A DNA stretch of 40,287 nt from Opitutaceae bacterium (GTDB lineage: Bacteria > Verrucomicrobiota > Verrucomicrobiia > Opitutales > Opitutaceae). Shown here in pieces: positions 14,775-40,287 of this stretch. The notes beneath the pieces are model-generated. The model made no database searches. It was not told where the DNA came from and saw only the letters and a program-made list of their open reading frames with translations. The DNA lies in NCBI GenBank assembly GCA_027482505.1, contig JAIXVY010000167.1, positions 1-40,287 of the forward strand, read 5' to 3'. Position numbers and translations under genes: made by a program. Every line of letters starts with the position of its first letter. The stretch's first letter is position 1.

Positions 14775-14801
14775 TTTATGCTTGCCGTTACGTTCGCTAA
14801 T

Positions 14802-14826: not shown

Positions 14827-14827
14827 C

Positions 14828-18221: not shown

Positions 18222-18293
18222 GCTAAAATCCCCGTTTCCTGCGCTCCTTTCTTAGCTCCCTGCTCCTCGCTCCCTTCTCCCAGCTCTTACCCC

Positions 18294-19376: not shown

Positions 19377-19390
19377 GCAACCTGTTCGCC

Positions 19391-20230: not shown

Positions 20231-20978
<748 letters not shown>

Positions 20979-20998
20979 TCCGTTTCCTACCCCTCTTC

Positions 20999-21821: not shown

Positions 21822-22976
21822 ATGAATCCTCTCCGCAAAACGGCGGCCGCGCTCCTCGCGCTTGCGACGCTTGGCCTGCTCGTCGCAGCACCCGCCGCCA
21901 TTTTGCGAGCCGAAGGGGAACAGGTCCGCCCCGCCGTCGCCCCCTTCCCCGCCGGCAAGCCTCGTCTGGTCTCCGCCAAACTCATGCGCGAGATCCACGA
22001 GCAGGTGAAAACGCCTCACAAGGTCGGCGTCGTCATTCCCGCCGAGCCCGGCGAACTCCTCGATTGCCCAAACGTCTTCCGCCACGGCGGACGCTGGTTC
22101 ATGGTCTTCGTCGCGAACAAGGATAAGGTCGGCTACGAGACCCACCTCGCCGTCAGCGACGACCTGCTCACGTGGAAACGCCTCGGCGTCATCCTCCCCT
22201 TCGCCAAGCAGGGCTGGGATGCCTGGCAGGCCGCCGGCGGTCTCGCCCTCTACGATACCCGCTGGGAGGGTGCCACTCACGAACTCGGCACCCACGAGGG
22301 CCACTACTGGCTCTCCTACCTCGGCGGCGCGCTCCAAGGTTACGAGACCGACCCGCTCGCCATCGGTCTTGCCCAAAGCGACGATCCTTCCGCGCTCCGC
22401 CCCTGGTCGCGCATCGCGGAAAATCCAGTCCTCTCCCCCGCCCAGTCCGACACGCGCGACTTCGAGCACACCACGCTCTATAAAAGTGCCGTCGTGCGCG
22501 ACGAGGCCCGCACGCTCGGCGCCGAGTTTGTCATGGCCTACAACGGCAAGGCTCCGCCCTACGGCCAGGAGCAGATCGGCCTCGCCATTTCCGACGACCT
22601 CCGCACCTGGCGCCGCTTCGGACACGGCCCGGTGGTGAACAACGTCGGCGCCGCGCCCTGGTCGATCAGCGGCGACCCGCAACTCGTCAAAATCGGCGAC
22701 ATCTGGGTGATGTTCTACTTCGGTGCCTTCTGGAAACCCGGCGCCTTCGACACCTTCGCCGCCTCCTATGATCTCATCCACTGGACCAAGTGGGACGGCC
22801 TGCACCTCGTCGAGCCGAGCGAGCCATACGATCAACAATTCGCCCACAAGCCCTGGGTCTTAAAACACGAGGGCGTCGTCTATCACTTCTACTGCGCCGT
22901 CGGCGACAAAGGGCGTGTTATCGCGCTCGCGACCTCCAAAGATCTCCGCGCTCGCGACGTCGCGATTTCGCCATGA
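21822..22976 (+). CDS. Secreted five-bladed beta-propeller glycosidase-like protein (GH43/GH32/GH130-like)
   Basis: The product is 384 aa. A signal peptide covers about residues 1-30. The body shows repeated propeller blades with the pattern xWxMxFxx followed by [18 protein letters not shown], for example [39 protein letters not shown] and [10 protein letters not shown]. Acidic residues at blade starts ([31 protein letters not shown]) are candidates for the catalytic pocket, but I cannot assign a family with certainty. It would act outside the cytoplasm on short glycans, possibly arabinose- or galactose-containing. Its stop overlaps the GH95 start as ATGA, so the two are translationally coupled and probably act on the same substrate. 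Confidence 0.85.
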
Positions 22977-25468: not shown

Positions 25469-28400
25469 TTACCGAAACTCCACCCGCACCGGGTTGAGCA
25501 AACGCACCGGACCGAGGAGACCGGAAGCCACGAGCGGCTCGTCCGCGTCGTAGAAATTCCAGGTCGAGAAAGTCGTGCGGCCACCGGGCGGCTTCGGCCG
25601 GCCGTCCTTATACCAATCGGGCAGCTTCACGATGCCGTGCGGGTCGTTGCCGTGCTCGTCGCGCAGACCGAACTCGTCCTCCGCGGGCAGCGACTGGTCG
25701 CCGATCAAGCGATTCGTCCACAGATTCGTCACCCGCACCTCGAGATCGTTGTCCCCCGCGCGCACGAGCTCGGTGATGTCGGCACGATAAGGCTCCTTCC
25801 AAACCACGGGCACGGCACGGCCATTGACCAAGATCTCGGCGAGCACCTCGACGCGCCCAAGATCGAGCACCACGCGACGGCCCGCCTCGAGCCACTCGCG
25901 TGGCACGGTCATGCTCTTTCGATAAGTCGCCGTGCCGGAGAAATGCCGCACGCCTGGATCCTCGTGCAGGTGCAGGGAACGCAATTCGGGCAACTCGATC
26001 CGCGCCGGCGCGCCGCGCCCGGCTTGAAACTCCACCTTCCACGCGCCGTCGAGGTCGCGCGGCTCACCTGGACGGGCCTCGACCGCTTTTCCGTCCAAAC
26101 CCAGTTGGTAACGCCCCGGCTCCCACGCGAGCAGGCTCGCGCCACCGGCCGCGTTGCGCGTCACGTCGCCCACGACCGGCAAGACAGGCGCGGGCACGCC
26201 CTCGGAGACCAGCTCGCGCAGATCCGCCTCGCCTAGCGCGCGGTCGAAGGAGCGCACGCCGGCGGAGTTACCCTCGAAGTAAAACACGTTGCCGCGCGAG
26301 GGCGGCGCCGTCTCCTTCGCCGCCTTGGCGAGGGACTCAAGGCCGGGGAAATAGAGCGTGTAGTCGACCGGCGGCGGCGGAGAGCCGACTCCTCCGTGGA
26401 CCTTCTTGCCCGAGCGCAGACCCTCGCGGACGAACTCGCCGTTCACGTAGAGCGAGGGCGTGCCGTCGCGATAAACGACCGCGACATGCGTCCAGCCGGA
26501 CACCGGCCGCTCCGACACCAAAACCGCCGGACAGGAATCCCACGCGCGCTCGACCACGAAGATGCCGTTGCGCCCGACCGCGAGTCCGGCCGTGGCCGCA
26601 CCGGCGCCAAAGCGCGCTTCGCCCGGATCGGCCGGGATCGCGTAGAACTTGCCCACCTCGTCGATGCGACCGCTCACGCTCTCCTTCGGCATGGCGCGCA
26701 GATCGGTGTCGGGCTTCACCCAGATCGCCATCGTGAAACCACCCGCCGGCGCGGGGGCCGTGACGGGCGGCAACGGAGCCGCGGACAAGATCGGCCGGCC
26801 ATCCTTGCGCAGCTCGGCCGCGAGCGGCTCACCCGGGCGGCGGAAAAGCACGAAGACCGACTCGCCGGGCTCCAGACGCAGCGGCAGATCGGCGCGATCG
26901 CCACGCGTGGAGAAAATCGCCGCGTCGCCGCGTTCGCCCGTTTCGGGACGCCAGAGCTCCGGCTGACGGCCGGCCATGCCGCGGAAGGAGGCGAGGCCTT
27001 CCTCGACCCGGCGCTGACGATTGGAAACGAAATAGAGATCGCCGTCGTCGAGACGCCGATGCTGCCAGGACAAGGCGCTGTCGGGCTGCGGAGACTCGAA
27101 AAAGAAATCCGGAGCGACCTTCGCCCGGGCGAGCGCCTCGCCGATAGTCTTCACCTCGCTCCACACGCGCCGCCGGGCCTCGCCCTCGCGCGACGCGCGC
27201 CAGATCTCGGCCACATCGGCCAACATCGCCGCCTCGCTATCGGGAAAGCCGCGCAGTGTGGGCGAGAAGCTTGGACGCGGCCCGAACAGCGCCGCGCCCG
27301 CCTCGACAAACCCGCGCAAACGGCGGGCCAGCTCCGGGCGCATCGCCTCCATCTCTTTCGGCAAAACCAATAGGCGGTAGCGGCCGCCCTCGGGCAGCAC
27401 GTAGTCGCCGTTTTCCACGCGCAGGCGGTTCAGCAGCACGTCGGCGTTGACCAGATCGTAGGTGTAGCCGGGCGGCAGCACCGGCATCGCCATCTGCGAG
27501 GGATCGGGCGCGCGCTCACCGGTGAAATACAACACGTCGGCGACCGGCCGCCCGTGACGAAGCACCTGCTGCGTCCGGGCGAGGTAGCGGGTCCACTCGC
27601 CGGCCTTCTCATACCAAGTGTTGGTGCGCTCGAGGTGCGAACCGTAGGGCCCCATCGTCATGCCGGGCACCGCGTCCGGATGCGGCTGGTGCGCATAGCG
27701 GTGGAAGTAAAACTGGTTCACGCCCGCCGCCATCATGTCGTCGCCGAGAATTTTGAGCGCGTAAGGATACTCCAACCAACGCGAGGTGCGGAACTCGCCG
27801 GTGAAAGCCTCCGCCGCCACCACGGGCCTGCCGTAGATGTGCGCGGCGGACGTCACCATCTTAACCGGGCGATTCGGAGTCCACGGCGTGCGGGTCCAGA
27901 ACTCGGTCATGGGCACGTCGGGCAGGCCGCAGACGCGCAGCTCGTCGAAATTGCCCGGGCCGTAGCCTTCCACGTAGAAGGTCAAACCGTGCTCGCGGGC
28001 GAGCGAGGCGGCGCGGCCGTAGTAATACTCGGCCATCATGTCGGCCTGCACGCGGCGAAAGTCGTAGAGGAAGCGCTCGGTGCGCGCCGCGTCGCCGACC
28101 ACGCGGCCGAGCAGCGCGGGCATGTAACCGAGAATCGAATACCCGGCTCGGCGCTCAAACTCGTCCGGAAAATTCCGCGTCCAGTTCTGCATGCCCGCCT
28201 CGTAGCTGTCGATTTCAAGGGAGCGTAGCGCTCCGGCGCCGGCGGCTTTAGCGTCCGCCATCACCTGATCGATGACGGTCTTAAAGTGCAGCTCGATGCC
28301 GGCGGGGTCGAGTTTGTCGCACTCGAGGCCGCGGCCGGCTTCGGAGGCGGCGACATTTTCTTTGCCGGTCGTGGTGTGGCCGAAACGCAGCACGGTCCAC

Positions 28401-29494
28401 GAGCCCGGGGGCGCTTCCCAGCGGAGGCGGCCATCGCGCATGAAAGTGCCCAGGTCGCGCACCGTGGTCGGGTCGATTCCCGCTGGGTTCCTCTCCGGCA
28501 GTCGGAGCTGCCCGGTGACGCGGTAGTCGAAGTTGGCTTTCGCGCCCCAGTCGTGGACGCGGGGCGAGCGGTGAAAAACGAGTTCGCCGATCGAGCCCGA
28601 ACGCGTGGGCGTTAGCCGCAGGAAGCGCGCGGTCACCGGCTCGGCAAAGTCGCGCACGGTCGGCCCCGCAATGCCTTGGCGAGGCGGATTGGCCACGCGG
28701 CCGAGCGACGTGAAATTTTGTCTGTCGGCCGAGACCTCCAGGTTGAGCGTGGCAAAACGTTTTCCCTCGGCAGCCCAGGCGCTGAGCCCATGCAGGGCAA
28801 CCGGGCGAACAAACTCCAAGGTCAGCGGCCGCCCCTCGGTGAACTCGATCGAAGTGGACGCGAGGCCGTCGCTCAGCGTCGCCGCGGGCAGCTCGGCGCC
28901 GTCGGCGGTGGCGAGGCGGGCGATCTCGTCCTCGTAGCGCGTCTCCTCGCCGGGCTGCGCCGGGAAGGCGATCACCGTGGCGTCCGCGTAGTAGCCTCGG
29001 TTGGCCTGCGGACGGGCGAGAGCGAGATCGACGAGGCCTCCGCCGCGCACCGTGGTCTCGGTCCAGACGAGTTGCTGCATCGAGCGCTCGGGCGTGATCC
29101 AGGGACCGCCGGAGGACGACCAGCCGGGACCGTTTTGCATGCCGGCGTCGAGCCCGAGCCGATTCGCCTCGCGGATGGCGTGGGTCATCAACTCGCGCCA
29201 GCGCGGCTGCAGATAGGCCGCCGGCCCGGCGGGCAGATAGGTGCTGCCGTCGTAGGCGAAAAAACCGCCGACGCCGGCCTGCTTCATCGCCTCGAGGTCG
29301 CGCGTGATGCCATCCGCGGTGACGTTGCCGTTCATCCAGAACCAGAAGGTGCGCGGGCGGGCGGAATCGGGGGGCGCGTCAAAGTCGCGGGCCGGATTCG
29401 CGCCTTCGCCCGCGCGCGGGGCCGCGGCCGACGCTCCGCCGCAGGCCAAAAGGAAGGCGGCGACGTAGCGGGAGACGCGGGCGAAGGGAATCAT
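25469..29494 (-). CDS. Secreted GH106-type alpha-L-rhamnosidase with inserted LamG-like domain
   Basis: The product is 1341 aa. A signal peptide covers residues 1-24 and starts at the ATG at 29494, 17 bases after the transporter gene; the longer open frame overlaps that gene and was rejected. The barrel starts with RTFWFWMNGNVTADGITRDLEAMKQAGVGG, the GH106 opening, and includes GMQNGPGWSSSGGPWI. The region around WEAPPGSWTVLRFGHTTTG and the FYVEGYGPGN segment are family hallmarks. Residues about 915-1100 form a concanavalin/LamG-like domain (FTMAIWVKPDTD, GWTHVAVVYRDG, LYVNGEF), and residues about 1170-1341 a GH2-type sugar-binding jelly roll. It should remove alpha-L-rhamnose from pectic glycans. 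It is last in the minus-strand operon and converges on GH95 with 36 bases between. Confidence 0.92.
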   Translation of the reverse strand: MIPFARVSRYVAAFLLACGGASAAAPRAGEGANPARDFDAPPDSARPRTFWFWMNGNVTADGITRDLEAMKQAGVGGFFAYDGSTYLPAGPAAYLQPRWRELMTHAIREANRLGLDAGMQNGPGWSSSGGPWITPERSMQQLVWTETTVRGGGLVDLALARPQANRGYYADATVIAFPAQPGEETRYEDEIARLATADGAELPAATLSDGLASTSIEFTEGRPLTLEFVRPVALHGLSAWAAEGKRFATLNLEVSADRQNFTSLGRVANPPRQGIAGPTVRDFAEPVTARFLRLTPTRSGSIGELVFHRSPRVHDWGAKANFDYRVTGQLRLPERNPAGIDPTTVRDLGTFMRDGRLRWEAPPGSWTVLRFGHTTTGKENVAASEAGRGLECDKLDPAGIELHFKTVIDQVMADAKAAGAGALRSLEIDSYEAGMQNWTRNFPDEFERRAGYSILGYMPALLGRVVGDAARTERFLYDFRRVQADMMAEYYYGRAASLAREHGLTFYVEGYGPGNFDELRVCGLPDVPMTEFWTRTPWTPNRPVKMVTSAAHIYGRPVVAAEAFTGEFRTSRWLEYPYALKILGDDMMAAGVNQFYFHRYAHQPHPDAVPGMTMGPYGSHLERTNTWYEKAGEWTRYLARTQQVLRHGRPVADVLYFTGERAPDPSQMAMPVLPPGYTYDLVNADVLLNRLRVENGDYVLPEGGRYRLLVLPKEMEAMRPELARRLRGFVEAGAALFGPRPSFSPTLRGFPDSEAAMLADVAEIWRASREGEARRRVWSEVKTIGEALARAKVAPDFFFESPQPDSALSWQHRRLDDGDLYFVSNRQRRVEEGLASFRGMAGRQPELWRPETGERGDAAIFSTRGDRADLPLRLEPGESVFVLFRRPGEPLAAELRKDGRPILSAAPLPPVTAPAPAGGFTMAIWVKPDTDLRAMPKESVSGRIDEVGKFYAIPADPGEARFGAGAATAGLAVGRNGIFVVERAWDSCPAVLVSERPVSGWTHVAVVYRDGTPSLYVNGEFVREGLRSGKKVHGGVGSPPPPVDYTLYFPGLESLAKAAKETAPPSRGNVFYFEGNSAGVRSFDRALGEADLRELVSEGVPAPVLPVVGDVTRNAAGGASLLAWEPGRYQLGLDGKAVEARPGEPRDLDGAWKVEFQAGRGAPARIELPELRSLHLHEDPGVRHFSGTATYRKSMTVPREWLEAGRRVVLDLGRVEVLAEILVNGRAVPVVWKEPYRADITELVRAGDNDLEVRVTNLWTNRLIGDQSLPAEDEFGLRDEHGNDPHGIVKLPDWYKDGRPKPPGGRTTFSTWNFYDADEPLVASGLLGPVRLLNPVRVEFR

Positions 29495-29511
29495 CGGGCT
29501 GCGAACACGAT

Positions 29512-30792
29512 TCACGGGGACGACGTGGCTGAGTCGGTCGGCCGACGGCGCCAGTAGTTGGCCAGGAGCGAGCCGGAGATGTTCATCCACGGGCTGAAGA
29601 CGGCGGCGGCCAGGCCGACCGTGGCCAGTTTGCCCATCGCGCCGGCCAGGCCAGAGGCCATGCCGCCGTTCTGGAGCCCCACCTCGATCGCGACGGTGCG
29701 ACACGAGGCGCGGTCCAGGCGGGCAAGACGGGCGAGCCAATAGCCGAAGAAATAGCCGGCGCCATTGTGCATCGCGGCGGTCACGAAAAGCAGGCCCCCG
29801 ACCAGCAGCAGGTTGTTGCGACCCGCCGCCGTGGTGATCGTGGTGAAATAGACGATGCCCGCCATCGAGAGAAAGGGCATGAACTTTTCGAGACGGGGCA
29901 GAAGGCGGACCAAATGATGATAAAAGACGCCGAAACCCGCCGCGCCGAACACGAAGCCGGCCAGCTCCAGACCGAGCGCGCCGCCGTCAGGCCCATGCCC
30001 CCAGACATCGCGCGTGAAAAGCATGCCCAGCGCGAACATCCCGGCGACCGCTCCCGCCATCGTCACGCGGCGCGCGGTCGCCGGCGCGGCGTTTTTCAGG
30101 TAGTCGTGCAGCAGAGCCGCGCCGATCGGCACGATCACGATTTTTATGATCTCCGTCATCATCGGCAGGAACCGCACCTCGACCAGTTCGCCCGCGAGAA
30201 TCTTCATCCACATCGGGGTCATGATCGGCGCGATCATGGTCGTGATGGCGGTCGCGGTGATGGAGAGGGCAAGATTGGCGCGGGCGATGTAGCACATCAC
30301 GTTCGAGGCCAAACCGCTAGAACAGCAGCCGATAAGGATGACTCCCGCCGCGATCTCGTCGGGCAGAGGAAAAATCCTGGTCAGCGCCCAGCCCGACAGG
30401 GGCATGACCAAAAACTGGCAGCCCACCGCGACCACCACGCCCCAGGGCATCTTCATCACGCCCACGAAATCCTTCAGGCTCATCTGCGTGCCCATGCCGA
30501 ACATGACCGTCTGCACCACGACCAGGACGAGCCACTTGTGGCGCAGATCAAATTCGCCCCACTTCAGGAAGGCCGCGGGGTAAATCATCGCCGCGACGAC
30601 AGCCACGATGATCCAGGCGGTGTATTGATAGCTCTTGAGCGACGGAACGGCGCCGAGACCGAGCGCCAGCGAAAGCGCGGCCGCGACGGCGGAGGGCGCC
30701 CAAACGGCGGGCGCCCCAAGTGCCAGCCCCAGCAGGAGCGCGATCAGGGCGGGCGCGGCCAGATAAAGGCAGACTTTGCGAATCAGGAGCAT
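29512..30792 (-). CDS. BASS-family (bile acid:sodium symporter-like) transporter
   Basis: The product is 426 aa with about ten hydrophobic helices. Characteristic stretches are VQTVMFGMGTQMSLKDF, FLVMPLSGWAL, GVILIGCCSSGLASNVMCYIARANLALSI and TVAIEVGLQNGGMASGLA, the conserved core of the bile acid:Na+ symporter fold. The ATG at 30792 was chosen because the upstream extension lacks hydrophobic helices and overlaps the hydrolase gene. In bacteria without bile acids this family carries organic acids such as pyruvate or pantoate, and sugar-acid transport is a fair guess here. It lies 23 bases after the alpha/beta hydrolase gene and 17 before GH106. It is one of three unrelated sugar or acid carriers in the window. 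Confidence 0.9.
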   Translation of the reverse strand: MLLIRKVCLYLAAPALIALLLGLALGAPAVWAPSAVAAALSLALGLGAVPSLKSYQYTAWIIVAVVAAMIYPAAFLKWGEFDLRHKWLVLVVVQTVMFGMGTQMSLKDFVGVMKMPWGVVVAVGCQFLVMPLSGWALTRIFPLPDEIAAGVILIGCCSSGLASNVMCYIARANLALSITATAITTMIAPIMTPMWMKILAGELVEVRFLPMMTEIIKIVIVPIGAALLHDYLKNAAPATARRVTMAGAVAGMFALGMLFTRDVWGHGPDGGALGLELAGFVFGAAGFGVFYHHLVRLLPRLEKFMPFLSMAGIVYFTTITTAAGRNNLLLVGGLLFVTAAMHNGAGYFFGYWLARLARLDRASCRTVAIEVGLQNGGMASGLAGAMGKLATVGLAAAVFSPWMNISGSLLANYWRRRPTDSATSSP

Positions 30793-30815: not shown

Positions 30816-32054
30816 CTAGATACGCCCGCCGTCGGGCAGAAACAGGCGTTCGCGCAGGTAGGCCATGAGTGGTTCGATCACATCGACGGCGATCGGCATC
30901 TTGTGCCCGCGCGGCTCTTTTTCGGGGTGAAAAACATAAGGGCTGCCCAGCTCCGCAAGACGGCGGCGGAGCACCTCCATTTGATGCAGGGCCTCGGGCG
31001 ACTCGGTCGCGTTTATGGTGAGGAAAAGCGGGACGGTCGGCCCGCGCAGATAGTCCAACGCACCCTGCTTTCGCCACATGTCCCCGTTCGTCGAGCGCTC
31101 GCCCCAAGATTTTATGTAGCGCGGGATCATTTTATCCTCCGGCAGAAGGTCGAGATAGGTGAAGCGGCCCGACATCACGACCGCGCCCTGCACCACGTCG
31201 GACACCCCGGGATGCTCTCCTTTGGGCTGGAATTCGCCGCTGTCGCCGGTCGTGGCGGCAAGGAGCGCCATGCCGCTGCCGCGGGAAAACCCAAGCGAGA
31301 CGACGCGGCCGTTGAGCCCGAGTTCGGGAGCGAGGGCGCGGAGCGAGCGCACCGCCGCCTTGGCCTTCCATGCGCTCTCGGGCATCGGATCGAGGCCCTT
31401 GTAAGGAGCGGAGACGGGATGATCCGACATCGCGGCCGCATGGCCCTCGATCGCCGCGACGGGAAGCGCGATGTCGGTGCAGAAAACGAGCGAGAAATTC
31501 CCCATGCGGTCCGCGTTGTCGCAGGAGAACTCCAGCACCGAGCCAACGGGCCTTTCGGGACGGGAAGGATAGACCACATCTAGCGCCAGCGCGCGTTTTT
31601 CCTCGCGAAAAAAGACCACGTCTCGGCGCAGCCGGCACCCCGCAGGGACGATGAATACGCGCGCCTCGTCGATCTTGCGGTCGCCAAGCAGCCGCTTCGC
31701 GCGCAAATCCTCGCGCAAGCGGACCAGGTCGGCGCAAAGCCCGGGCAGGACGGAGCGCGGATGCCGAGCGTAATCGATCACGACAACCAGATGGCCGGCG
31801 GCGCGGAGATCCCGAAGGATGGACTCGTCGGGCTCGGTGCCGACGCGAGGCGCAGCAAGATTAGCCAGATACAAAACCACCGGGGGACCGGCCTCCGCGG
31901 GGACCGCGGGTTCGGGCTCCAGAAGCTCCAACGCCAACTCGGCGCCCGTGGCCGGACTCGACCAAGTCGCCGCCGTAGTCTGGCGGGGCAAGGCGAGCAA
32001 ACCCGCGCACGCGAGCAGCAGGCGGACGAGGAGGCGCGGCAGGCAAAGGTTCAT
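30816..32054 (-). CDS. Secreted alpha/beta hydrolase (esterase-like)
   Basis: The product is 412 aa with a signal peptide to about residue 29. The nucleophile elbow is GFSRGSG with Ser257. His384 in PRGHKMP is the likely catalytic His. The acidic partner position is NATESPEALHQ (Glu351), where most relatives have Asp. The layout VVVIDYARHP, GFSRG, PLFLTINATESP, GHKMP resembles carbohydrate esterase-like proteins of the BD-FAE/acetylxylan esterase group, so removal of acetyl or methyl groups from glycans is possible. It overlaps the racemase-like gene by one base (TGATG). The substrate is unproven. Confidence 0.8.
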   Translation of the reverse strand: MNLCLPRLLVRLLLACAGLLALPRQTTAATWSSPATGAELALELLEPEPAVPAEAGPPVVLYLANLAAPRVGTEPDESILRDLRAAGHLVVVIDYARHPRSVLPGLCADLVRLREDLRAKRLLGDRKIDEARVFIVPAGCRLRRDVVFFREEKRALALDVVYPSRPERPVGSVLEFSCDNADRMGNFSLVFCTDIALPVAAIEGHAAAMSDHPVSAPYKGLDPMPESAWKAKAAVRSLRALAPELGLNGRVVSLGFSRGSGMALLAATTGDSGEFQPKGEHPGVSDVVQGAVVMSGRFTYLDLLPEDKMIPRYIKSWGERSTNGDMWRKQGALDYLRGPTVPLFLTINATESPEALHQMEVLRRRLAELGSPYVFHPEKEPRGHKMPIAVDVIEPLMAYLRERLFLPDGGRI

Positions 32055-32722
32055 CAGGAGGCTTTCAGCACGGTAGCAAGGTGGTCGATCGCCAGCGGCG
32101 GACTGGCGAAGATCGGCACGCGTTTCTCCGCGGCAGGCAAGGCGTCCACCACGCGGGCCATCGAGGCCTGCGCGAGCAGGATGACATCGACTTGGGAGGA
32201 CAACTCGCGGAGCGCGGCGGCGACGAGCGCGTCATGGGTGGCGGCGTCACCCGACATGAGCGCCTCGAATGCGCCGTTCACAAGACGGGCGGTAAGCTCG
32301 ATTTCCCTGCCGGCCAGAACCGCGCGGCGGCGCACCAAATCCGAGGTGGGATTGAGCGTGGTGGGCAGCGTGGCGATGACGCCGATGCGGCGGCCGGCGG
32401 CCACCGCGGCGTCGGCCATCGGCTGGTCCACGCGCAGCACCGGCACGGCGCAGAAGGGCGCGGAGGCCTCGACCGCGGGCCCGATGGAGGAACAGGTGAC
32501 GAGAATGTGGTCCGCGCCGCCCGCCTCGGCCGAGGTGATGTAGGCCTCGACGCGACGCGCGATGTCGGCGGTGAGCGACCCTCTCGTCCCGATGGCGCGC
32601 ACGAGACTGTCATCCACGATGTTGAAGGTATCGACGTTCGGCAGCTTGGTTTTGCAGAGCTGCTGAAAAACCGGGACCAAGGTCGCGGAGGTGTGGATCA
32701 GGGCGAGCGTTTTACGCGACAT
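32054..32722 (-). CDS. Asp/Glu/hydantoin racemase-family protein with one of two catalytic Cys
   Basis: The product is 222 aa with the family's alpha/beta/alpha core. Cys77 in HILVTCSS matches the first catalytic Cys. At the second site, where racemases have L(A/G)CAGM, this protein reads LLAQASMARV, so the Cys is replaced by Gln185. A normal two-base racemisation is therefore unlikely. One-Cys members of this superfamily include arylmalonate decarboxylase, so a decarboxylase, isomerase or lyase role is worth considering. It lies 29 bases after the DUF1537 kinase gene and overlaps the hydrolase gene by one base. The substrate is probably a sugar-derived acid from the kinase/RuBisCO-like branch. 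Confidence 0.85.
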   Translation of the reverse strand: MSRKTLALIHTSATLVPVFQQLCKTKLPNVDTFNIVDDSLVRAIGTRGSLTADIARRVEAYITSAEAGGADHILVTCSSIGPAVEASAPFCAVPVLRVDQPMADAAVAAGRRIGVIATLPTTLNPTSDLVRRRAVLAGREIELTARLVNGAFEALMSGDAATHDALVAAALRELSSQVDVILLAQASMARVVDALPAAEKRVPIFASPPLAIDHLATVLKAS

Positions 32723-32751
32723 GAGAGGATGGGGTTAAAGAGACTTGAAAA

Positions 32752-34026
32752 TCAAACCGCGCCGCAGGCGACGCCGCCGAAGAAATCAGGCGCGCCGACT
32801 TGGCCGCCCTTAAAGACGATCTCGAGTCCGTCGGCCGGCGAAGAGGGTGCATGGACGCGACAGAGCGGAGCGCCGGGCACGAGCGGGGCGATCATCTCGA
32901 GCGATTCGATCCCGAGCGCGCGGCCGGCGTAGCTCGAGGTATCGCCGCCCGCGAACAACACGCGGCGAATGCCGGTGTTGGCAACGACTTGGCCCGCGAG
33001 GCGGCCGAGCTGCGTGCCGAGTTGATCCGCGTGCACGTTGGCCTTCGGGTGGTTGCCGAGGCTCGTGTAGGCAACGACGTTTCGCCCGGCGCGCAGGCTG
33101 TTCATGATCGGAACCAGCGCGGAGGAGAAATCCCCTGCGTCGGCCTGCAGGGCAAAGCCGTCGAAGCCGTTCGCCCGCGCCCACGCGATCTGCCCGCCGG
33201 TGACCGGCGAGCAACTCCCGGAGAGCACGAGCAGCGGGCTGCCGGCGGATTTCGCCGCGGGCAAGGACACCGACGGCGCGCCCCAGTGGGCGGCGAGCGC
33301 CGCGCCCACGCCGGAGGAGCCGACGGAGAACAGTGGAGTTGGGCCGGCAAGGCCGTCGATGAGGGCGCCGACCCGCGCGAGGTGGGCGGCGTCGAGACTG
33401 TCGAAGAGCACGATCTGCTGGCCGGCGGCGACGAGGCGATTGAGGACCGCGGCGCTTTCCTCGGGCGTGCGCTCGAGCTCGGTCACGTCGATGAGGCCGA
33501 TGGATTTCGCAGTCTGCTTCGCGAGATGCGCGCGCAGATCCGCTTCCGTCATCGGAGTGACCGGGTGTTTGCTCACCGAGGGATGACGGTCGAGACGGTG
33601 GATCGAGCCGGCGCTGCCGATGCCGTAGCGCGCGAAGAGATTTCCAAAAACGCAGAAGCGTCCGAGCGCAGGCGCGGCGACAAGCAGAGGGACGACAGGC
33701 CCACCGAAGATCTCCGAGCCGACCTCGATCGCACGACCAATGCTGCCCACCGTGGGTGAGGAGTCGAAGGTCGAGCAAACCTTGTAGTGCACATGCGTCG
33801 GGCCGAGCGCGCGCAGCGCGGTGAAGGCCGGCCGCAGGACTGTCTCCATCGCCTCGGGTGCGAGCGCGCGAGTGAGACCGGCGACGCCAACCGCATCCAG
33901 ACCGACGCAACGCTCGGCGGAAGGCGCGTCGAGGAAGAGACGAGTCCGCAGACCGGCGCGGGCGAGCGACTCGAGCGCGTCGGTCGCGCCCGTGAAATCA
34001 TCGGCGAAGTAGGCGAGGCGTATCAT
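32752..34026 (-). CDS. DUF1537 four-carbon acid sugar kinase family protein (OtnK/OiaK-like)
   Basis: The product is 424 aa, the family's usual length. The N-terminal substrate domain opens with the signature AYFADDFTGATDALES (6-20), and KVCSTFDSSPTVGSIG (82-97) is the second conserved stretch. The C-terminal nucleotide domain contains SGSCSPVTGGQI and the ATP-binding FAGGDTSSYAGRALG near residue 360. Members phosphorylate hydroxy-acids such as erythronate, threonate, 2-oxo-tetronate and 3-oxo-isoapionate with ATP. It begins 3 bases after the stop of a RuBisCO-like gene. That pairing is known from D-apiose catabolism, where 3-oxo-isoapionate kinase feeds a RuBisCO-like decarboxylase or transcarboxylase. 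Specificity is inferred from context only. Confidence 0.93.
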   Translation of the reverse strand: MIRLAYFADDFTGATDALESLARAGLRTRLFLDAPSAERCVGLDAVGVAGLTRALAPEAMETVLRPAFTALRALGPTHVHYKVCSTFDSSPTVGSIGRAIEVGSEIFGGPVVPLLVAAPALGRFCVFGNLFARYGIGSAGSIHRLDRHPSVSKHPVTPMTEADLRAHLAKQTAKSIGLIDVTELERTPEESAAVLNRLVAAGQQIVLFDSLDAAHLARVGALIDGLAGPTPLFSVGSSGVGAALAAHWGAPSVSLPAAKSAGSPLLVLSGSCSPVTGGQIAWARANGFDGFALQADAGDFSSALVPIMNSLRAGRNVVAYTSLGNHPKANVHADQLGTQLGRLAGQVVANTGIRRVLFAGGDTSSYAGRALGIESLEMIAPLVPGAPLCRVHAPSSPADGLEIVFKGGQVGAPDFFGGVACGAV

Positions 34027-34029
34027 CGT

Positions 34030-35274
34030 TCAGGAGCCGCCGAACTTGGCGGCGGATTTCGCCAGCGCGGGATAGTTAACCATCGCCTGTTCGTAGCTTA
34101 GACCCTCGACGGCCGCCTCCCACCAAAGCTGAAGCGAACGCACTCCGGCCGCGGGGCCGTCGGGATGCGCCTGGATGCCGCCGCCCGCCATGTAGAGCAG
34201 ATCGGTGGTCTGGGTGCGGCGCCAGGTCTCGGGCGCCTGCCCGCCCCACTGGCCGGAGGAGACGACCGGCAGGAGGGGCGTGCCTAGCGGCTCGGCCGAC
34301 AAACAGGAGCGGATCGAGCGCACGACAGAATCATCGGGCTCCCAGAACTTGTTGGCGATGCCATTGACGTGGAGCTGGTCCACGCCGACGAGGCGCCAGA
34401 GCTTCTGGTAGGCGGGAAACTCCATGCCGAGCATCGGGTGGCGACTGAGCATGCCCCAGCCATTGCGGTGGGCGTGGACCGCGAGCTGGCCCCGGTCGCA
34501 AAGCTTCTTCGCGGCCGGCATGCCCACCCAGTTGATGCTCATCATCGCGCAGGTGCCGCCGCTCTCCACGATCTTGTCGTAATGACGCTGCATGGCGTCG
34601 AGCTCGTCGCTGCAGTTGAAGGCATACATCGCCTTTTTTCCGGTGCGCTGGGCGTGGTCGTTGATCACACGCATGACGGCGTCGACGCGCGCGTCGAAGG
34701 GCGAGTGCGGCGGATTGGCCATCAGCTCGTCGTCCTTGAGAAAATCGATGCCGGCCTCGACGAGCTCCTTCACCATCGCGGCGGTCTGGTCAGGCGAGAG
34801 CCCGATGCTCGGCTTGATGATCGTGCCGATCAGCGGCCGACCACGCACGCCGGTCAGACGCCGGCAGCCCTCGACCCCGAAGGCCGGTCCCCGGAAAGCG
34901 GCGGCAAAGCCGGGTGGAACGTCAAAGTCCCGCAGCTTAAGCCCAGAAAACTGGCAAAGCTCGTAGAGGTTGCCTTGGAGCGTGGAGACCAGCGCGGGCA
35001 GGTTCGCGCCGAAATTCTCCACCGGCCAGGAGATCACGATTTCCGCCCGGCGATACACGGACGCCGGGGGACGTCCGGTCGGCAGCGAGGGCGTGGAAAC
35101 GGTTTCCAGCTCGGTGATGCGCTCCACGCGGGCGGCGAAGCGCTCCTTCAGCTCGGCCGTCTCGCCCGGCACGGCGACGAAGGTGCCGGAAGACTGCTCG
35201 CCGGCGAGCGTGGCGGCGGCCTTGGCGATCGGGAGGGCGGTCTCGATGAGGTAGGTGGCGGTGACGCGTTCCAT
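34030..35274 (-). CDS. RuBisCO-like protein (form IV large-subunit homologue)
   Basis: The product is 414 aa, shorter than form I RuBisCO (about 475) but usual for RuBisCO-like proteins. The N-terminal domain covers 1-130 with GEQSSGTF (Glu26, spinach Glu60 position) and Asn102. The barrel retains Lys154 (Lys175), the carbamylation site Lys180 with Asp182 and Glu183 in FLKDDE, His269-Arg270 (294/295), His302 (327), Lys309 at the Lys334 position, Ser340-Gly341 and GGG at 364-366. The Lys177 position is Ser156. Retention of the metal site suggests enolate chemistry on a phosphorylated ketose acid. The adjacent DUF1537 kinase fits 3-oxo-isoapionate-4-phosphate decarboxylase or transcarboxylase/hydrolase. 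It is 9 bases downstream of the enolase-family gene. Autotrophic CO2 fixation is not implied. Confidence 0.94.
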   Translation of the reverse strand: MERVTATYLIETALPIAKAAATLAGEQSSGTFVAVPGETAELKERFAARVERITELETVSTPSLPTGRPPASVYRRAEIVISWPVENFGANLPALVSTLQGNLYELCQFSGLKLRDFDVPPGFAAAFRGPAFGVEGCRRLTGVRGRPLIGTIIKPSIGLSPDQTAAMVKELVEAGIDFLKDDELMANPPHSPFDARVDAVMRVINDHAQRTGKKAMYAFNCSDELDAMQRHYDKIVESGGTCAMMSINWVGMPAAKKLCDRGQLAVHAHRNGWGMLSRHPMLGMEFPAYQKLWRLVGVDQLHVNGIANKFWEPDDSVVRSIRSCLSAEPLGTPLLPVVSSGQWGGQAPETWRRTQTTDLLYMAGGGIQAHPDGPAAGVRSLQLWWEAAVEGLSYEQAMVNYPALAKSAAKFGGS

Positions 35275-35283
35275 GGTCGTGCT

Positions 35284-36396
35284 TCAGGCGAGATTGATTT
35301 TGGCGAGGGCTTCCGCGCTGGGCTCCATCCCGGCGCCGGGCGTCTCCGGGGCGACGAAATGGCCGTCGCGCACCTGCGCGGGATGGCGCATCCAGTCGCG
35401 CAGCCAAGGAATGTATTCGAGCAGGCGGCAGGCCGGATGGGCGAAACAAAGATGCTGGTGAACCTGGCACATGTCGCCCACGTGCGGCACGACTGGCAGG
35501 CTGTAACTGTGCGCGAGGTCGGCGACCTGCCAGAACTCGGTCACTCCGGCGAGACGGACGACGTCCGGCTGCACAAAGTGGACGGCGCCGGCGTGGATGA
35601 AATCGCGGAACTGGTGCGCGAGGTAGAGCTGCTCGCCCAGCGCGATAGGGGTTTCGATGGCCTCGGCGAGGCGGCGATGCGCAAGCACGTCGTCGAAAGT
35701 CGTCGGCTCCTCGAACCAGACCACGTCGAAGTCGGCGAGGCGTCGCCCGAGCCGGATCGCCTCGGGCAGGCTGAGTTTTCCGTTGGCGTCGGTCATGATG
35801 CGCACGCCGGGCCCGAGCGCGGCGCGCACCGCCTCGAGGCGGCGGAGGTCGGTCGAGAGATCGGGGCTGCCGACCTTGATCTTCACCGCGCGATACCCCT
35901 CGACCTCGACCATGCGCTTGCAGTCGGCGACGAGCGTCTCGAGCGGCCAGTTGAGCCAGCCGCCGTCGGTGTTGTAGGCCTCGACCTTCTTGGCGGCGGA
36001 ACCACCGAGGAGTTTCCAGAGCGGCAGGCCGGCGGCCTTGGCCTTCAGGTCCCACAGCGCGATGTCGATGGCACCCAGCGCGAGATGCGTGATACCGGAG
36101 CGGCCGACCCACTGCACGGGCGAGTGCTTGTGCAACTTCTCCCAGAGCGCGCGCACCTCGCGCGGATCCTCGCCGAGCAGGAGCGGGCCATAGCTGTGGA
36201 CCGCGCAGTCGACGATCAAGCGATCGGTCGGCAGGTGGGCATGCGTGCCGGAAAAGCCATAGCCTACCAGACCATTGTCGGCGCGGATGGCCACGCCAGG
36301 CGCGCCCCAATGCGTGATGCTGTGGGTGCTGTCCGCGATGCCGCCGCGCGTGACGGGGGCGTGCAGGATGATCGGAGTGATTCCGGTGATCTTCAT
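35284..36396 (-). CDS. Enolase-superfamily sugar acid dehydratase (mandelate racemase/L-fuconate or L-rhamnonate dehydratase type)
   Basis: The product is 370 aa. The capping domain covers 1-120. The barrel has the KxK motif Lys172-Ile-Lys174, metal ligands Asp203 (MTDANG), Glu229 (WFEEP) and Glu255 (ALGEQ), and the His-Asp dyad Asp278 and His305 (PHVGDM). This set marks the mandelate racemase subgroup, whose members dehydrate sugar acids to 2-keto-3-deoxy acids. The start is fixed by the ATGA overlap with the GH78 gene. It can supply the missing dehydratase step of the lactonase-SDR-FAH set encoded 14 kb away on the other strand. The direct coupling to GH78 alpha-L-rhamnosidase favours L-rhamnonate. 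Other sugar acids remain possible. Confidence 0.93.
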   Translation of the reverse strand: MKITGITPIILHAPVTRGGIADSTHSITHWGAPGVAIRADNGLVGYGFSGTHAHLPTDRLIVDCAVHSYGPLLLGEDPREVRALWEKLHKHSPVQWVGRSGITHLALGAIDIALWDLKAKAAGLPLWKLLGGSAAKKVEAYNTDGGWLNWPLETLVADCKRMVEVEGYRAVKIKVGSPDLSTDLRRLEAVRAALGPGVRIMTDANGKLSLPEAIRLGRRLADFDVVWFEEPTTFDDVLAHRRLAEAIETPIALGEQLYLAHQFRDFIHAGAVHFVQPDVVRLAGVTEFWQVADLAHSYSLPVVPHVGDMCQVHQHLCFAHPACRLLEYIPWLRDWMRHPAQVRDGHFVAPETPGAGMEPSAEALAKINLA

Positions 36397-39092
36397 GACG
36401 CGACGCGGCAGGTGCTGATGAAGGTGTAGCGGCCGGCGGGCGCATCGGCGACGACGGCGAAACGGCCCTCGCGACCGGAGAGCGTCAGCCCATCGCTCGC
36501 GACCGCCGTGCCCGGCTCGCTCGGAATAAGGATGCGAGCGGTGGTGTTGGGCGGAACAACCACGGTCCAAGTGAGACGGTCGCCCGCGAGTTTCCACTCG
36601 CTGCGGATCTCACCGTGAAGCGTGCGATAGGAGGCGCGCGCAAAATCAAGGCCCGCGCCGAGAAAGGGCTGAAGCGTGAAGCGCTTGAAGCCCGCCTGTT
36701 CGGGATCGAGCTCGATGCCCGCGACGTGGCGGAACAACCACTCGCCCACGGAACCAAGCGAGTAGTGGTTGAAGGAGTTCATGCCGTCCTTGTGGAAACC
36801 GCCGGCGATGGTCCAGCTGTCCCAACGCTCCCAGATGGTCGTCGCGCCCTGCATGACGGGGAAAAGCCAGGACGGATAACCCTCCTGAAGCAGCAGCCGG
36901 TAGGCGACGTCGGCGTGGCCTGTAAGCGTGAGAATGGGGTTGAGATGGCTGATGCCGACAAAGCCGGTGCTGAGATGCCAGCCGAGCTCGCGGATGTTGG
37001 CGACGAGCCGTTCGGCGGCGCGGGCGCGAACCTCGGCCGGCAGCAGATCGAAGGCGAGCGCGAGCAGGTAGGCGGTCTGCGTCTCGACCGCGATCTGGCC
37101 GTCGGGGAGCAGCCACTCTTTCTGGAAGGCGGCGCGGACGCGCTCGAACATGGCTTGGAAACGAACGGCCTCCGCCTCGCGTCCGAGGGCGCGAGCCATG
37201 CGCGCCATCTTGGCGGCGTCGTCCGCCCAGTAGGCGGTGGCGAGCAGGTTCTTCATCGGCGAATGCGTGCCGAAGGAGGTGTCGCTCGGGATGCACAGCC
37301 AGTCGCCGTAGTTGTTGGCGAGCTTGTTGAGGCGGAGCCCGTCGGGGTTGTGACGCTCGATCCAGTCGAGCCAGCGAACCATCGAGCCCCAGTGGCGCTC
37401 GATGACGCGGAGATCGCCATAAACGCGCCACAGCGTATGCGGAATAATGATACCGGCGTCGGCCCAGGCGGCGGCGCCGCCGAGATTTCCAAGTCCGACG
37501 AAGTTGATGTCCTCGCGCAGGCGCGGCGCGACGTCGGGGAAAATTCCCTCCGGCGTCTGCGCGTCCTCGACGTCGATCAGCCACTTGGTAAAGAAGGCGG
37601 CGACGTCCATGTTGCACATGGCGGTGCGGCAGAACACCTGCGCGTCGCCCATCCAGCCGAGGCGCTCGTCGCGCTGCGGGCAATCGGTCGGCACGCTGAG
37701 GAAGTTGTCACGCTGCGACCAGAGTCCGTTGAGCCAGAGGCGGTTCACGCCGGCGTGCGAGCACTCGAAACGGCCGGCGGGCGGCGTGGCGGAGTGGATG
37801 ACGCAGCCCGTGACCGCGTCCGCCAGCGGAGCGCCCGGCAGGCCGGTGAGCTCCACGTATTGGAACCCGTGGAAAGTGAAGCGGGGCTCGAAAATCTCCA
37901 CGCCTCCGCCACGGCAAACGTAGACATCCGCGGCCTTCGCGCGGCGCAGGTTGGCGGTGTAGAGCGTGCCGTCGGCGTTGAGGCGCTCGCCATGGCGCAG
38001 CTGCACGCGCGTGCCGGCGGGCGCCTCGACCTTGAGCCGGACGTAGCCGGAGATGTTTTGGCCGAGATCGTAAAGGTGGACACCCGGGCCGACCTCCGTG
38101 TGCGAGACCGGCGCGAGCATTTGGGTGACGCGAACCGGTTCCGAACGCTGGGCGACGAGCGAAGCCTCGGGCGCGGCGACCTCGCGCGCGGGCAACCAAT
38201 CGCGCGGCTCTCGACGGGCGTCGTAGATTTCGCCCATCTGAAAATCGGAGGACAGGATCGGACCGGTGGCGCATTGCCAGGAGCCGTCGGTGCCGAGCGT
38301 GAACCGCGAACCGCCGGCGAGCTCGACCTCGATCTGCACGAGCAGGCTGTTTTCGAGCGAGCCGTAGCGGCCGCGCTGCTCCTGCCAACCGACATAGCCT
38401 GTCCACCAGCCGTCGCCGAGCGTGGCCAAGATCTCGTTGCGGCCAGCGACGAGCATGGCCGTGACGTCGTAGGCGCGGTAGTGGATGCGTTTGAAATAGT
38501 CGGTCCACTCGGGAGCGAAGAGATCCTCCCCCACCCGCTTCCCGCCGAGGTGCAGTTCAAAAAGTCCGCGCGCGCTGGCGTAAACGGTGGCGCGACGGAC
38601 TTCGGAAACGGAGGGCAACTCGAATGCACGACGAAACACGGCGGGCGTGCCCGGCTCGATGAGCGTCGGCGCGATTGCCTGCGGGTCGCGACGGAGAATC
38701 TCCGGATCCGAGGCAATCCAGCGCGCGGACCAGTCGGCTTTTTCCAGCAGGCCCATGGTCCAGAGCGCGGGGGCGGAGCGGATGACGGCCCCGGTCTCGT
38801 CCCAAAGCTCGACGTTCCAGTGGCAGGCGTCGCGGGAGCGGAGCGGCGCGCCGGCGTAGACGACGTGCGCGGTGGCGTCGCTCTCGACCCGGCCGCTGTC
38901 CCAGCGATCGCCTTCGCCTGCGGCGAGCTTGGCGGCCGTGCTGGCCACGCGGATACGGTAGGCCAGCTGGCGCGCGCCTTGGCGCTCGGTTTCGAGGCAC
39001 CAGCTCAGGCGCGGCGCGGTTTCGTCGATGCCGAGCGGATCGACGAGGTATTCGCAACGGAGGCGGCCGACGGAGGTGGACAAGGCGGACAT
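36393..39092 (-). CDS. GH78 alpha-L-rhamnosidase, no signal peptide
   Basis: The product is 899 aa. Domain order is the usual one: N-terminal Ig-like domain (about 8-130, LRCEYLVDPLGIDETAPRLSW), Bac_rhamnosid_N jelly roll (about 135-310, RATVYASARGLFELHLGGKRVG), concanavalin-like domain (about 320-420), (alpha/alpha)6 barrel (about 425-770) and C-terminal beta domain. The catalytic acid is likely Glu476 in CPQRDERLGWMGD and the base Glu755 in TTIWERWDSW. The N-terminus MSALSTSVGRLRCEY has no secretion signal, so it should work in the cytoplasm on imported rhamnosides. The stop overlaps the dehydratase start as ATGA, tying rhamnose release to sugar acid catabolism. It lies 15 bases downstream of the DUF1593 gene. 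Confidence 0.96.
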   Translation of the reverse strand: MSALSTSVGRLRCEYLVDPLGIDETAPRLSWCLETERQGARQLAYRIRVASTAAKLAAGEGDRWDSGRVESDATAHVVYAGAPLRSRDACHWNVELWDETGAVIRSAPALWTMGLLEKADWSARWIASDPEILRRDPQAIAPTLIEPGTPAVFRRAFELPSVSEVRRATVYASARGLFELHLGGKRVGEDLFAPEWTDYFKRIHYRAYDVTAMLVAGRNEILATLGDGWWTGYVGWQEQRGRYGSLENSLLVQIEVELAGGSRFTLGTDGSWQCATGPILSSDFQMGEIYDARREPRDWLPAREVAAPEASLVAQRSEPVRVTQMLAPVSHTEVGPGVHLYDLGQNISGYVRLKVEAPAGTRVQLRHGERLNADGTLYTANLRRAKAADVYVCRGGGVEIFEPRFTFHGFQYVELTGLPGAPLADAVTGCVIHSATPPAGRFECSHAGVNRLWLNGLWSQRDNFLSVPTDCPQRDERLGWMGDAQVFCRTAMCNMDVAAFFTKWLIDVEDAQTPEGIFPDVAPRLREDINFVGLGNLGGAAAWADAGIIIPHTLWRVYGDLRVIERHWGSMVRWLDWIERHNPDGLRLNKLANNYGDWLCIPSDTSFGTHSPMKNLLATAYWADDAAKMARMARALGREAEAVRFQAMFERVRAAFQKEWLLPDGQIAVETQTAYLLALAFDLLPAEVRARAAERLVANIRELGWHLSTGFVGISHLNPILTLTGHADVAYRLLLQEGYPSWLFPVMQGATTIWERWDSWTIAGGFHKDGMNSFNHYSLGSVGEWLFRHVAGIELDPEQAGFKRFTLQPFLGAGLDFARASYRTLHGEIRSEWKLAGDRLTWTVVVPPNTTARILIPSEPGTAVASDGLTLSGREGRFAVVADAPAGRYTFISTCRVAS

Positions 39093-39107: not shown

Positions 39108-40287
39108 TCAGGGTGAAGGCGCGAGCGGCGCCGGACGCGCGCAGCGTTCCATGCGAGCGGCGAAATCGCGAAGATAATCCTCGCGCCACCGGCTGACGCC
39201 GCGAGCGCCATGATGAACGCCCTCGGCGGCCTCGGGCGCGGGATCGTCGGTCCACCAGTTGGGGAAACGCGGCGAGGGCCGCTCGGCGCATTCAGGCGCG
39301 GGAAGATAGGCGGTGATCTCGCCGGCGAGGCCGTCGATGCCGGGGAGATTGCTCGCGATGGAGTAGGCGAAGACCTTGGGATCGCGCGGGCAAAAGCGGA
39401 AGCGCAGGCGGCCGGCGCCGTCGGCGTGGGCGGCGATGGTTTGGTTGCCCAGCGTGAGCCGCGCCTCGGGGGGGCCGGGGGTCTTGAACCCGGGCGGGAT
39501 CGGCAGAACGAGCTCCACGATGCTGAAAATTTCCACGCGGTCGGCGGCGGTGGTCAGCCGATCAAAACGGGCTTGCGGACGATCCCAGGCGCGAACGAAG
39601 CGGCCGCCCCAGCCGGGGGCGGCGGGATCGGAGGGATGGCCGCACAGGAGCCAGTTCACGGAGGGCGTGTCGCCCATCTTGATCGTGCCGCCGAGGTGTT
39701 GCGCGAAGTATTCGCCGAGCGCCCCGCGGCCCGCGATGTGGCGGGCGACGAAGCTTTGGTTTCCCCACTCGCCCGATTGGTTTCCGCCGAGAAAATAACC
39801 GCGATAGGTTGAGTTGGCCTCGATGATCCAAAGCGAAGGGCGGTGATCGACGAGATATTGGTAGGCGTCGGGACCCCATTTTTTATTCGGTCCGCCGATG
39901 TAGTAGACGCGCAGCCTAGGCAAAATGTCGGGCGCGTCGTGCAAGGCCTGCGCCAGCTCCTCGAGCGCGCCCCAGACGAGCACATGCAGCGGGCGCGAGT
40001 CCTCACGGCGGGCGCAGCGAACGATCCAATCCGAACCTTCCGTGGCGCCGCGCAGACCCGAGTAGGGCGCGGGTTTGACGCCGCCCTGCTTGGTCACGGC
40101 GCGCAGGGCGCCGGGCTCGGGATAGTCGGAGGACCAAGCGCGAAGATTGGAAAAATCCCGCGCGTAGGCGTCGATCACCTCGAGAATCCTGTCCTTCCCC
40201 GCCCCCTCGAAGGGCGAGGACACGAGGCCCTCGATCTCAAGCACGTCCGCATAGAGCAGCAGGTGCGCCATCGACTGGTAGTCGTCG
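39108..40287 (-). CDS. DUF1593 nucleoside hydrolase-like protein, 5' end cut by right edge
   Basis: At least 392 codons are present and the frame continues beyond the window: the first visible residues are DDYQSMAHLLLYADVLEIEGL, matching the internal DUF1593 stretch normally preceded by a TDI-x-NEPDD motif. The apparent Met at 40271 is therefore internal, not the start. The nucleoside-hydrolase-like Rossmann region runs to about residue 280 (LHVLVWGALEELAQALHD, LRVYYIGGPNKKWGPDAYQYL, WIIEANSTYRGYFLGG), followed by a C-terminal beta domain (TLGNQTIAAHADGAGRLRFRF). Relatives are secreted proteins often labelled cellulose-binding. Signal peptide and calcium-site Asp residues lie outside. It is the first visible gene of the operon that continues with GH78. 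Confidence 0.88.
   Translation of the reverse strand, partial: DDYQSMAHLLLYADVLEIEGLVSSPFEGAGKDRILEVIDAYARDFSNLRAWSSDYPEPGALRAVTKQGGVKPAPYSGLRGATEGSDWIVRCARREDSRPLHVLVWGALEELAQALHDAPDILPRLRVYYIGGPNKKWGPDAYQYLVDHRPSLWIIEANSTYRGYFLGGNQSGEWGNQSFVARHIAGRGALGEYFAQHLGGTIKMGDTPSVNWLLCGHPSDPAAPGWGGRFVRAWDRPQARFDRLTTAADRVEIFSIVELVLPIPPGFKTPGPPEARLTLGNQTIAAHADGAGRLRFRFCPRDPKVFAYSIASNLPGIDGLAGEITAYLPAPECAERPSPRFPNWWTDDPAPEAAEGVHHGARGVSRWREDYLRDFAARMERCARPAPLAPSP

Follow-up and report, generated by a model that had tools for sequence, protein, structure and literature searches.

A conserved gene block with a RuBisCO-like protein and a one-cysteine racemase homologue as a probable route for L-aceric acid

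The present study asks which sugar is served by a group of sugar-acid genes in the window, a stretch of 40,287 nucleotides from an Opitutaceae bacterium (assembly GCA_027482505.1, contig JAIXVY010000167.1, here C405; source genome 4.28 Mb, 79% complete). An earlier note, made from the sequence alone, had pointed to four adjoining genes for an enolase-superfamily dehydratase, a RuBisCO-like protein (RLP), a DUF1537 kinase and an Asp/Glu racemase homologue without its second cysteine, and had proposed chiefly a variant of D-apiose catabolism or else a route for another branched sugar. The coordinates and the gaps of 9, 3 and 29 bases are right, and all four products match their Pfam families above gathering scores (MR_MLE_N/C; RuBisCO_large N/C; SBD_N with NBD_C, i.e. 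DUF1537; Asp_Glu_race). The run of minus-strand genes is longer than these four, and reads in order of transcription Sde182-like, GH78, enolase-superfamily, RLP, DUF1537 kinase, racemase homologue, hydrolase-like, BASS and GH106 (Table 1). Within it the conserved unit is RLP, kinase, racemase homologue and BASS transporter, with the enolase a local neighbour. This block probably catabolises L-aceric acid from rhamnogalacturonan II (RG-II), with a substrate suggested by context and a chemistry that we infer. L-aceric acid, 3-C-carboxy-5-deoxy-L-xylose, is a rare branched sugar acid of side chain B of RG-II, the most complex of the plant pectins.

Patterns of conservation separate the block from the enolase. 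Among 95 relatives, RLP matches were present in 20, of which 18 have the window's type (at least 68% identity); G056 and G090 have the other type only, and both types occur together in G033. A racemase homologue (at least 67%) was found in 17 of the 95, all among these 18 and near the RLP, and in the eighteenth, G043, the contig ends inside the kinase gene. The enolase (E 1e-120) was found in 14 of the 95, stood beside the RLP in 7 of the 18 relatives with the block (six from the same genus as the window, one from elsewhere) and was absent from the remaining 11. Thus, where the earlier note had asked whether the four genes stay together, RLP, kinase and racemase homologue do and the enolase leaves, and its distribution rules out the dehydratase as a block member and speaks against the place in the pathway that had been suggested for it. 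L numbers denote loci; a scan of genome contigs kept 80 named ones, the top-ranking of at least 579. The racemase homologue (at least 45%) was present in 65 of the 97 loci examined; the BASS gene cluster occurred in 57 of these 65 vs none of the 32 others, and the cluster of AcerH, the GH127 aceric acid hydrolase, in 33 of 65 vs 2 of 32. The order RLP, kinase, racemase homologue, BASS on one strand is the rule (55/66 racemase-bearing loci, AcerH apart), and in 28/66 the order on one strand is AcerH, RLP, kinase, racemase homologue, BASS. The block was found in Verrucomicrobiota, Bacteroidota, Planctomycetota and, in varied form, Chloroflexota. A plasmid of Rufibacter tibetensis typed as mobilizable (NZ_CP012644.1, L041), from a Bacteroidota soil strain, carries the four-gene block among pectin genes together with an aceric acid hydrolase gene; RLP relatives occur in 365 plasmid records, and of five examined among 30 listed the block was in this one. 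Among its hosts are named genera available in culture (Pedobacter, Flavobacterium, Mucilaginibacter, Runella, Niabella, Rufibacter and Sphingobacterium), so that the block is directly testable.

The kinship of RLP and kinase with the OiaX and OiaK enzymes, as the earlier note had supposed, is borne out, though below the equivalog cut-offs. The best NCBIfam model for the RLP was OiaX (NF042437; 511.9 bits, cut-off 700), then RuBisCO III (214.8 bits), with the methionine-salvage enolase MtnW further down (TIGR03332; 118.4 bits, cut-off 513.6); a role in methionine salvage, raised there as a refuting outcome, is ruled out by these model scores. For the kinase the best model was the 3-oxo-isoapionate kinase OiaK (NF042436; 367.1 bits, cut-off 700), and the 3-oxo-tetronate kinase model gave 182.1 bits. 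Residues K154, K180, D182, E183, H267, H269, K309 and G364-G366 were invariant in 20 aligned RLPs, and presumably are the RuBisCO-type sites (Lys of IIKP, KDDE, His, loop Lys and GGG). In an RLP tree of 100 rows made by a quick method, a branch with SH-aLRT 100 set 65 rows apart from the rest, and 63 of these have the racemase partner. The one-Cys protein is a conserved partner. The two main-group RLPs without it, L069 and L115, lie in loci that lack the kinase as well, and these may be blocks that were broken or split. Duplicate contigs or partial loci (L021, L023, L024, L030, L035, L058 and L059) were left out of this tree and of the racemase alignment. The only RLP in the tree named OiaX, from Rhizobium sp. 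CCGE532 (L044), has a long branch; the two characterised OiaX/OiaT enzymes are absent from it, since they were not among the 80 loci kept by the scan out of at least 579. Fourteen RLP positions mark the racemase-bearing group, but are no mark of substrate, because the Chloroflexota members L112 and L118 lack most of them (1/14 shared in each).

The racemase homologue has one conserved cysteine, as had been claimed for it. Its AlphaFold model (pLDDT 94.8) has the Asp/Glu racemase fold (Z 21.1, rmsd 2.8, 215 residues aligned to 3s81_D), and the Asp_Glu_race match is 68.2 bits (cut-off 31). With the superfamily of aspartate, glutamate, hydantoin and allantoin racemases, maleate isomerase and arylmalonate decarboxylase it shares the whole fold (Z 15-21) and the first catalytic cysteine, Cys77, kept in 69/69 aligned homologues. 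It differs at the second catalytic cysteine of the two-Cys racemases: in profile alignments that of 2eq5 and 3qvj aligns with Gln185, which is likewise invariant (69/69) and followed by Ala in 68 and Gly in 1. A second one-Cys homologue, of 31-32% identity and with Cys and Gln kept, occurs at L133:3438-7808 and L134:7294-11627 in the company of a sugar isomerase and a kinase (RpiB- and Dak1-type genes, with further open reading frames); that cluster may well be a further route, for a ketose or a tetrose.

The links to aceric acid and to the transporter go beyond the earlier note. Its second suggestion, a route for another branched sugar, is the best reading. AcerH denotes the GH127 family of NF049879 (curated cut-off 950 bits). 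Genes near the block scored 897 and 906 bits in two relatives, and the best PDB chain for the block-side GH127 protein was 5mqo (690 bits; next 365), which we take to be BT1003. BT1003 of Bacteroides thetaiotaomicron is given in PMC10850190 as a GH127 aceric acid hydrolase; the block's GH127 neighbour is of the same family, but BT1003 only frees aceric acid, whereas the proposed block would be the catabolic continuation. Of ten AcerH-like genes scanned, five outside Verrucomicrobiota exceeded the cut-off (997-1170 bits; L070, L118, L112, L072, L088), L067 and L077 gave 888 and 943 bits, and three were generic (82-109 bits). Matches in the 95 relatives fell into two groups, 22 genomes at 691-960 bits (in three of them the copy is cut or split) and, at no more than 603 bits, generic GH127; counting copies of 690 bits or more, cut ones included, AcerH was present in 18/18 block-bearing relatives vs 4/77 others (G028, G032, G048, G067; Fisher p 7e-16 with kinship left out of account). 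In the genus of the window, AcerH and block occur in exactly the same 6 of 15 genomes. The two are often adjacent: in 17 of 33 loci no more than 150 bases separate the end of the AcerH gene from the RLP match, and L069, among these 17, is without kinase and racemase homologue. Where flanks were adequate (79/98 loci), AcerH was present in 32/58 with the racemase homologue vs 1/21 without. Whole genomes or records (40, chosen among loci without flanking AcerH, the racemase-bearing short-contig loci L063, L075, L080, L083 and L087 left out) were also searched: AcerH (at least 832 bits) was elsewhere in 17 of 22 with racemase-bearing named loci, the misses being L099, L116 (best 498 bits), L120, L123 and L124, vs 2 of 17 with loci lacking the homologue (L101, L104); it was also in L115, and 14 of the 40 had a copy above the cut-off. 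In the Chloroflexota loci L112 and L118, outside the main RLP group, AcerH again accompanies RLP, kinase and racemase homologue; in L108, whose RLP is sister to theirs, the oxidoisomerase ApnO takes its place. GH127-like genes not of the AcerH family (82-109 bits) stand directly before the RLP-kinase pair at L116:8352-9962, L124:3924-5816 and L042:8175-9986, in Acidobacteria and Croceibacterium.

In most loci with the block, the BASS gene comes after that of the racemase homologue. Because the BASS protein is proposed as importer of free aceric acid, it would be needed only where AcerH is exported, and the two patterns agree. Hydrophobic N-terminal stretches were scored by a crude measure whose cut-off was set after viewing the N-termini (mean Kyte-Doolittle of at least 1.6 over 12 residues). 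All 33 AcerH from BASS-bearing loci have such a stretch, and 4/5 from loci without BASS have none (L064 and L090, Phycisphaerae; L112 and L118, Chloroflexota); the fifth, L069, is the locus also without kinase and racemase homologue. In other words, BASS was present in 33/34 cases where AcerH looks exported and absent in 4/4 where it does not, these four representing two lineages only. The comparison used 38 AcerH with complete N-termini, L052 (1 of 35 loci, cut N-terminus) being left out and four of 17 available genome copies added, L064 and L090 without BASS and L073 and L086 as controls. In L112, three genes that by eye look ABC-transporter-like, the first without an NCBIfam match, lie between racemase homologue and RLP.

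From the gene content, conservation, co-occurrence and export/transporter match observed, we infer a substrate, a set of reactions and an order of steps. The usually exported GH127 hydrolase would free aceric acid, and the BASS protein would import its anion. The racemase homologue, moving one proton with its single cysteine, may then convert the aldose to the 2-ketose HOCH2-CO-C(OH)(COOH)-CHOH-CH3; one proton-shuttling cysteine would suit such a 1,2-shift better than two-base racemisation. 3-Oxo-isoapionate is HOCH2-CO-C(OH)(COOH)-CH2OH, and the proposed ketose would be the same molecule with CHOH-CH3 replacing CH2OH; the two share the reacting group, so that a kinase and an RLP like those of the known route would find their usual group here. 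The kinase would phosphorylate the CH2OH of the ketose, and the RLP, via a RuBisCO-type enediolate, would remove CO2 to give a 5-deoxypentulose 1-phosphate, from which an aldolase would produce dihydroxyacetone phosphate and acetaldehyde; alternatively it may cleave as OiaT does, to 3-phosphoglycerate and L-lactate. No oxidoreductase is kept in the block across the 97 loci examined, which fits entry by isomerisation. A complete redox-neutral aceric acid pathway in at least four phyla, with a one-Cys isomerase of racemase fold and an RLP step of carbon loss or C-C cleavage on a branched ketose phosphate, is put forward tentatively, at somewhat short of even confidence.

An alternative explanation could be that aceric acid is the substrate but is processed by other chemistry, with the racemase homologue an epimerase or decarboxylase, a host sugar isomerase of rhamnose or fucose type making the ketose, and an OiaT-like RLP yielding 3-phosphoglycerate and lactate. 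The fold relatives of the homologue, which include racemases, maleate isomerase and arylmalonate decarboxylase, would be consistent with this, as would the lack of a conserved aldolase in the block among the loci scanned. At L036:2734-5507 a GlcD/GlcF-type 2-hydroxyacid oxidase pair follows BASS, the first gene overlapping it by 4 bases, but the pair was in only 1 of 105 loci scanned, and the racemase homologue is the only enzyme without an assigned role that is kept in the block, so we consider this explanation unlikely. The L036 pair would make sense if the RLP yields a 2-hydroxyacid; a conserved oxidase of this kind was sought and rejected, L036 having the only one. Class II aldolases were likewise set aside as support: they are in 29/29 block genomes searched but in 12/14 controls too, and a near-universal family says nothing. 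A class II aldolase-like gene (by eye) at L077:6583-7335, which lies 2.7 kb upstream of the RLP gene and in the same orientation, has no homologue in the other 104 loci scanned.

The main idea of the earlier note, a variant of the RLP route of D-apiose via 3-oxo-isoapionate 4-phosphate in which the racemase homologue or the dehydratase replaces a known step, is less likely again. The OiaK-OiaX/OiaT route reportedly goes back to Carter et al. in 2018, and a summary is given in PMC6302742. The block resembles it in having adjacent RLP and DUF1537 kinase genes with the same best family models, and in a proposed substrate with the same HOCH2-CO-C(OH)(COOH)- group. It differs in that ApnO is replaced by a racemase homologue and an acid transporter, in its aceric acid hydrolase partner and proposed redox-neutral entry, and in scores below the OiaX and OiaK cut-offs with a group of its own in the RLP tree. 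ApnO-like genes were found in 2/58 loci with the racemase homologue vs 13/21 RLP loci without (79 with adequate flanks); they stand beside the kinase in the block-free loci L038-L040. Full-length ApnO-like genes occur in 7/95 relatives, three of them block genomes (3/18) in which they are on other contigs than the block, and no match was found in the source genome (79% complete). GH140 apiosidase-like genes in the block loci L032 and L088 could speak for apiose, but fit RG-II breakdown equally; L120 and L123, which combine the racemase homologue with ApnO, also favour it. There is, moreover, another candidate for apiose use. An AptB-like gene, of apiose transketolase type, was present at 59% identity or more in 19/95 relatives, including 17/18 block genomes, and homologues of the set of Escherichia coli SE15 were found at about 50% (AptA), 40-45% (AptB) and 33-36% (AplK). 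The names apsI, aplK, aptA and aptB are as given for the apiose transketolase pathway in PMC13001218. That pathway has no RLP, but similar genes share loci or genomes with the block, and should apiose be handled by this set, the RLP block would be free for another sugar. Apiose is thus disfavoured as the block's substrate. Among plasmids AptB had no match over 60%, and that search was set aside.

The company of the enolase elsewhere is different. In five of six further enolase loci fetched (L131, L133-L136) it adjoins a homologous short-chain dehydrogenase gene, 44-57% identical to that of 'Verrucomicrobia bacterium IMCC26134', a member of the window's genus, and L132 ends just after the enolase gene. 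A GH29 fucosidase-type gene is near it in L131 (Pfam) and L133 (near-identical N-terminus), and in IMCC26134 it adjoins RraA-like, galactarate/altronate dehydratase-like and short-chain dehydrogenase genes. The short-chain dehydrogenase and GH29 company therefore points to deoxyhexonate breakdown, and the enolase is probably a deoxyhexonate (6-deoxyhexonate) dehydratase that happens to be a neighbour. That the block itself serves L-rhamnose or another 6-deoxyhexose acid, with this dehydratase in the pathway, is very improbable: GH78, GH106, RhaT, lactonase, SDR and FAH genes surround the block and the enolase gene is 9 bases from the RLP, but it is missing from the 11 block-bearing relatives noted above and has no homologue above 32% identity in any Bacteroidota locus, and neither a kinase nor a RuBisCO-like enzyme is known to take part in such a route.

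Besides the missing aldolase, several observations weigh against aceric acid as the substrate or against the steps proposed. We know of no aldose-ketose isomerase of Asp/Glu racemase fold. In Verrucomicrobial genomes with the block, AcerH does not reach the family cut-off, and the only copy in the 95 relatives to pass 950 bits is in G048, without block. The copy in the source genome (867.6 bits, cut-off 950) is on another contig than the block, C495, with AplK-, AptB-, AptA- and ApsI-like genes; C495 ends just past an MFS gene which in relatives stands between AcerH and GH78, and C405 and C495 may be neighbours. AptB co-occurs with the block as well as AcerH does. The AplK-like kinase passes the NCBIfam cut-off for the glycerol kinase subfamily, and the members of the apiose set owe their names to similarity only. 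The RLP tree offers too few independent pairs for a significant result (median p 0.5). The Acidobacterial loci L116, L120, L123 and L124 have RLP, kinase and racemase homologue (49-52%) but AcerH was not found in their genomes, so that the homologue is not exclusive to AcerH genomes; two of them, L120 and L123, have ApnO as well, and in L116, L120 and L124 an MFS-like gene is beside the homologue. L099 has the block, and AcerH was not found in the search of its genome or record. Conversely, the ApnO-type genomes L101 and L104 have AcerH, and L109 has a 638-bit match. RG-II enzymes travel together, and co-occurrence alone cannot single out aceric acid; the case for it draws also on adjacency, on the export/transporter match, on the recurrence in Chloroflexota and on the chemistry.

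Table 1. Features of the window in descending order of position, with the basis for each assignment.
Feature	Coordinates	Strand	Basis
Sde182 nucleoside hydrolase-like protein	39108..40271	-	Pfam
GH78 alpha-L-rhamnosidase, upstream in same gene run	36393..39092	-	Pfam; near block in many relatives
Enolase-superfamily (mandelate racemase group) dehydratase	35284..36396	-	Pfam; best NCBIfam model 254 bits (cut-off 500); best PDB 3tj4
RuBisCO-like protein (RLP)	34030..35274	-	Pfam RuBisCO_large; NCBIfam OiaX 512 bits (cut-off 700); best PDB 3nwr
DUF1537-family kinase	32752..34026	-	SBD_N/NBD_C; NCBIfam OiaK 367 bits (cut-off 700)
One-Cys Asp/Glu racemase-fold protein	32054..32722	-	Asp_Glu_race; AlphaFold model
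Hydrolase-like protein between racemase homologue and BASS	30816..32054	-	Signal-like start by eye; no match in Pfam/NCBIfam
BASS-family (sodium/bile acid symporter) transporter	29512..30789, start approximate	-	SBF Pfam 108.9 bits; PanS model 206 bits (cut-off 400)
GH106 alpha-L-rhamnosidase	25469..29500, start approximate	-	Pfam
Match to N-terminal part of BT0996-type beta-L-arabinofuranosidase	21822..22976	+	NF049877 347 bits, model positions 15-356 of 1400 (cut-off 1800 bits, for whole protein)
RhaT symporter, lactonase, SDR, FAH-family hydrolase	18294..21808	+	Best models below equivalog cut-offs

The hydrolase-like gene of the window was not seen at its place in loci L021-L040, with a 32% homologue nearby in L023 and L024. 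BT0996-type beta-L-arabinofuranosidase is an enzyme of RG-II chain B. The RhaT, lactonase, SDR and FAH genes are a probable non-phosphorylative L-rhamnose route and belong to one cluster at 13539-21808 with MaoC-like, IclR, Gfo/Idh/MocA and CoA-transferase III genes; parts of it recur with RhaT in L028, L029, L037, L094 and Rufibacter (L041), and CoA-transferase and MaoC genes are odd in a rhamnose route.

Many RG-II glycosidases are known, and no description of the microbial fate of freed aceric acid was found among the titles of the literature matches listed. RG-II occurs across plants and, according to the same source, the enzyme that synthesises L-AceA is unidentified too (PMC12168206). 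If the proposal is true, the block supplies the step that follows the release of aceric acid in RG-II breakdown. It would also give a RuBisCO-like protein a further physiological role, and the racemase homologue would be the first sugar isomerase of racemase fold, no earlier one being known to us.

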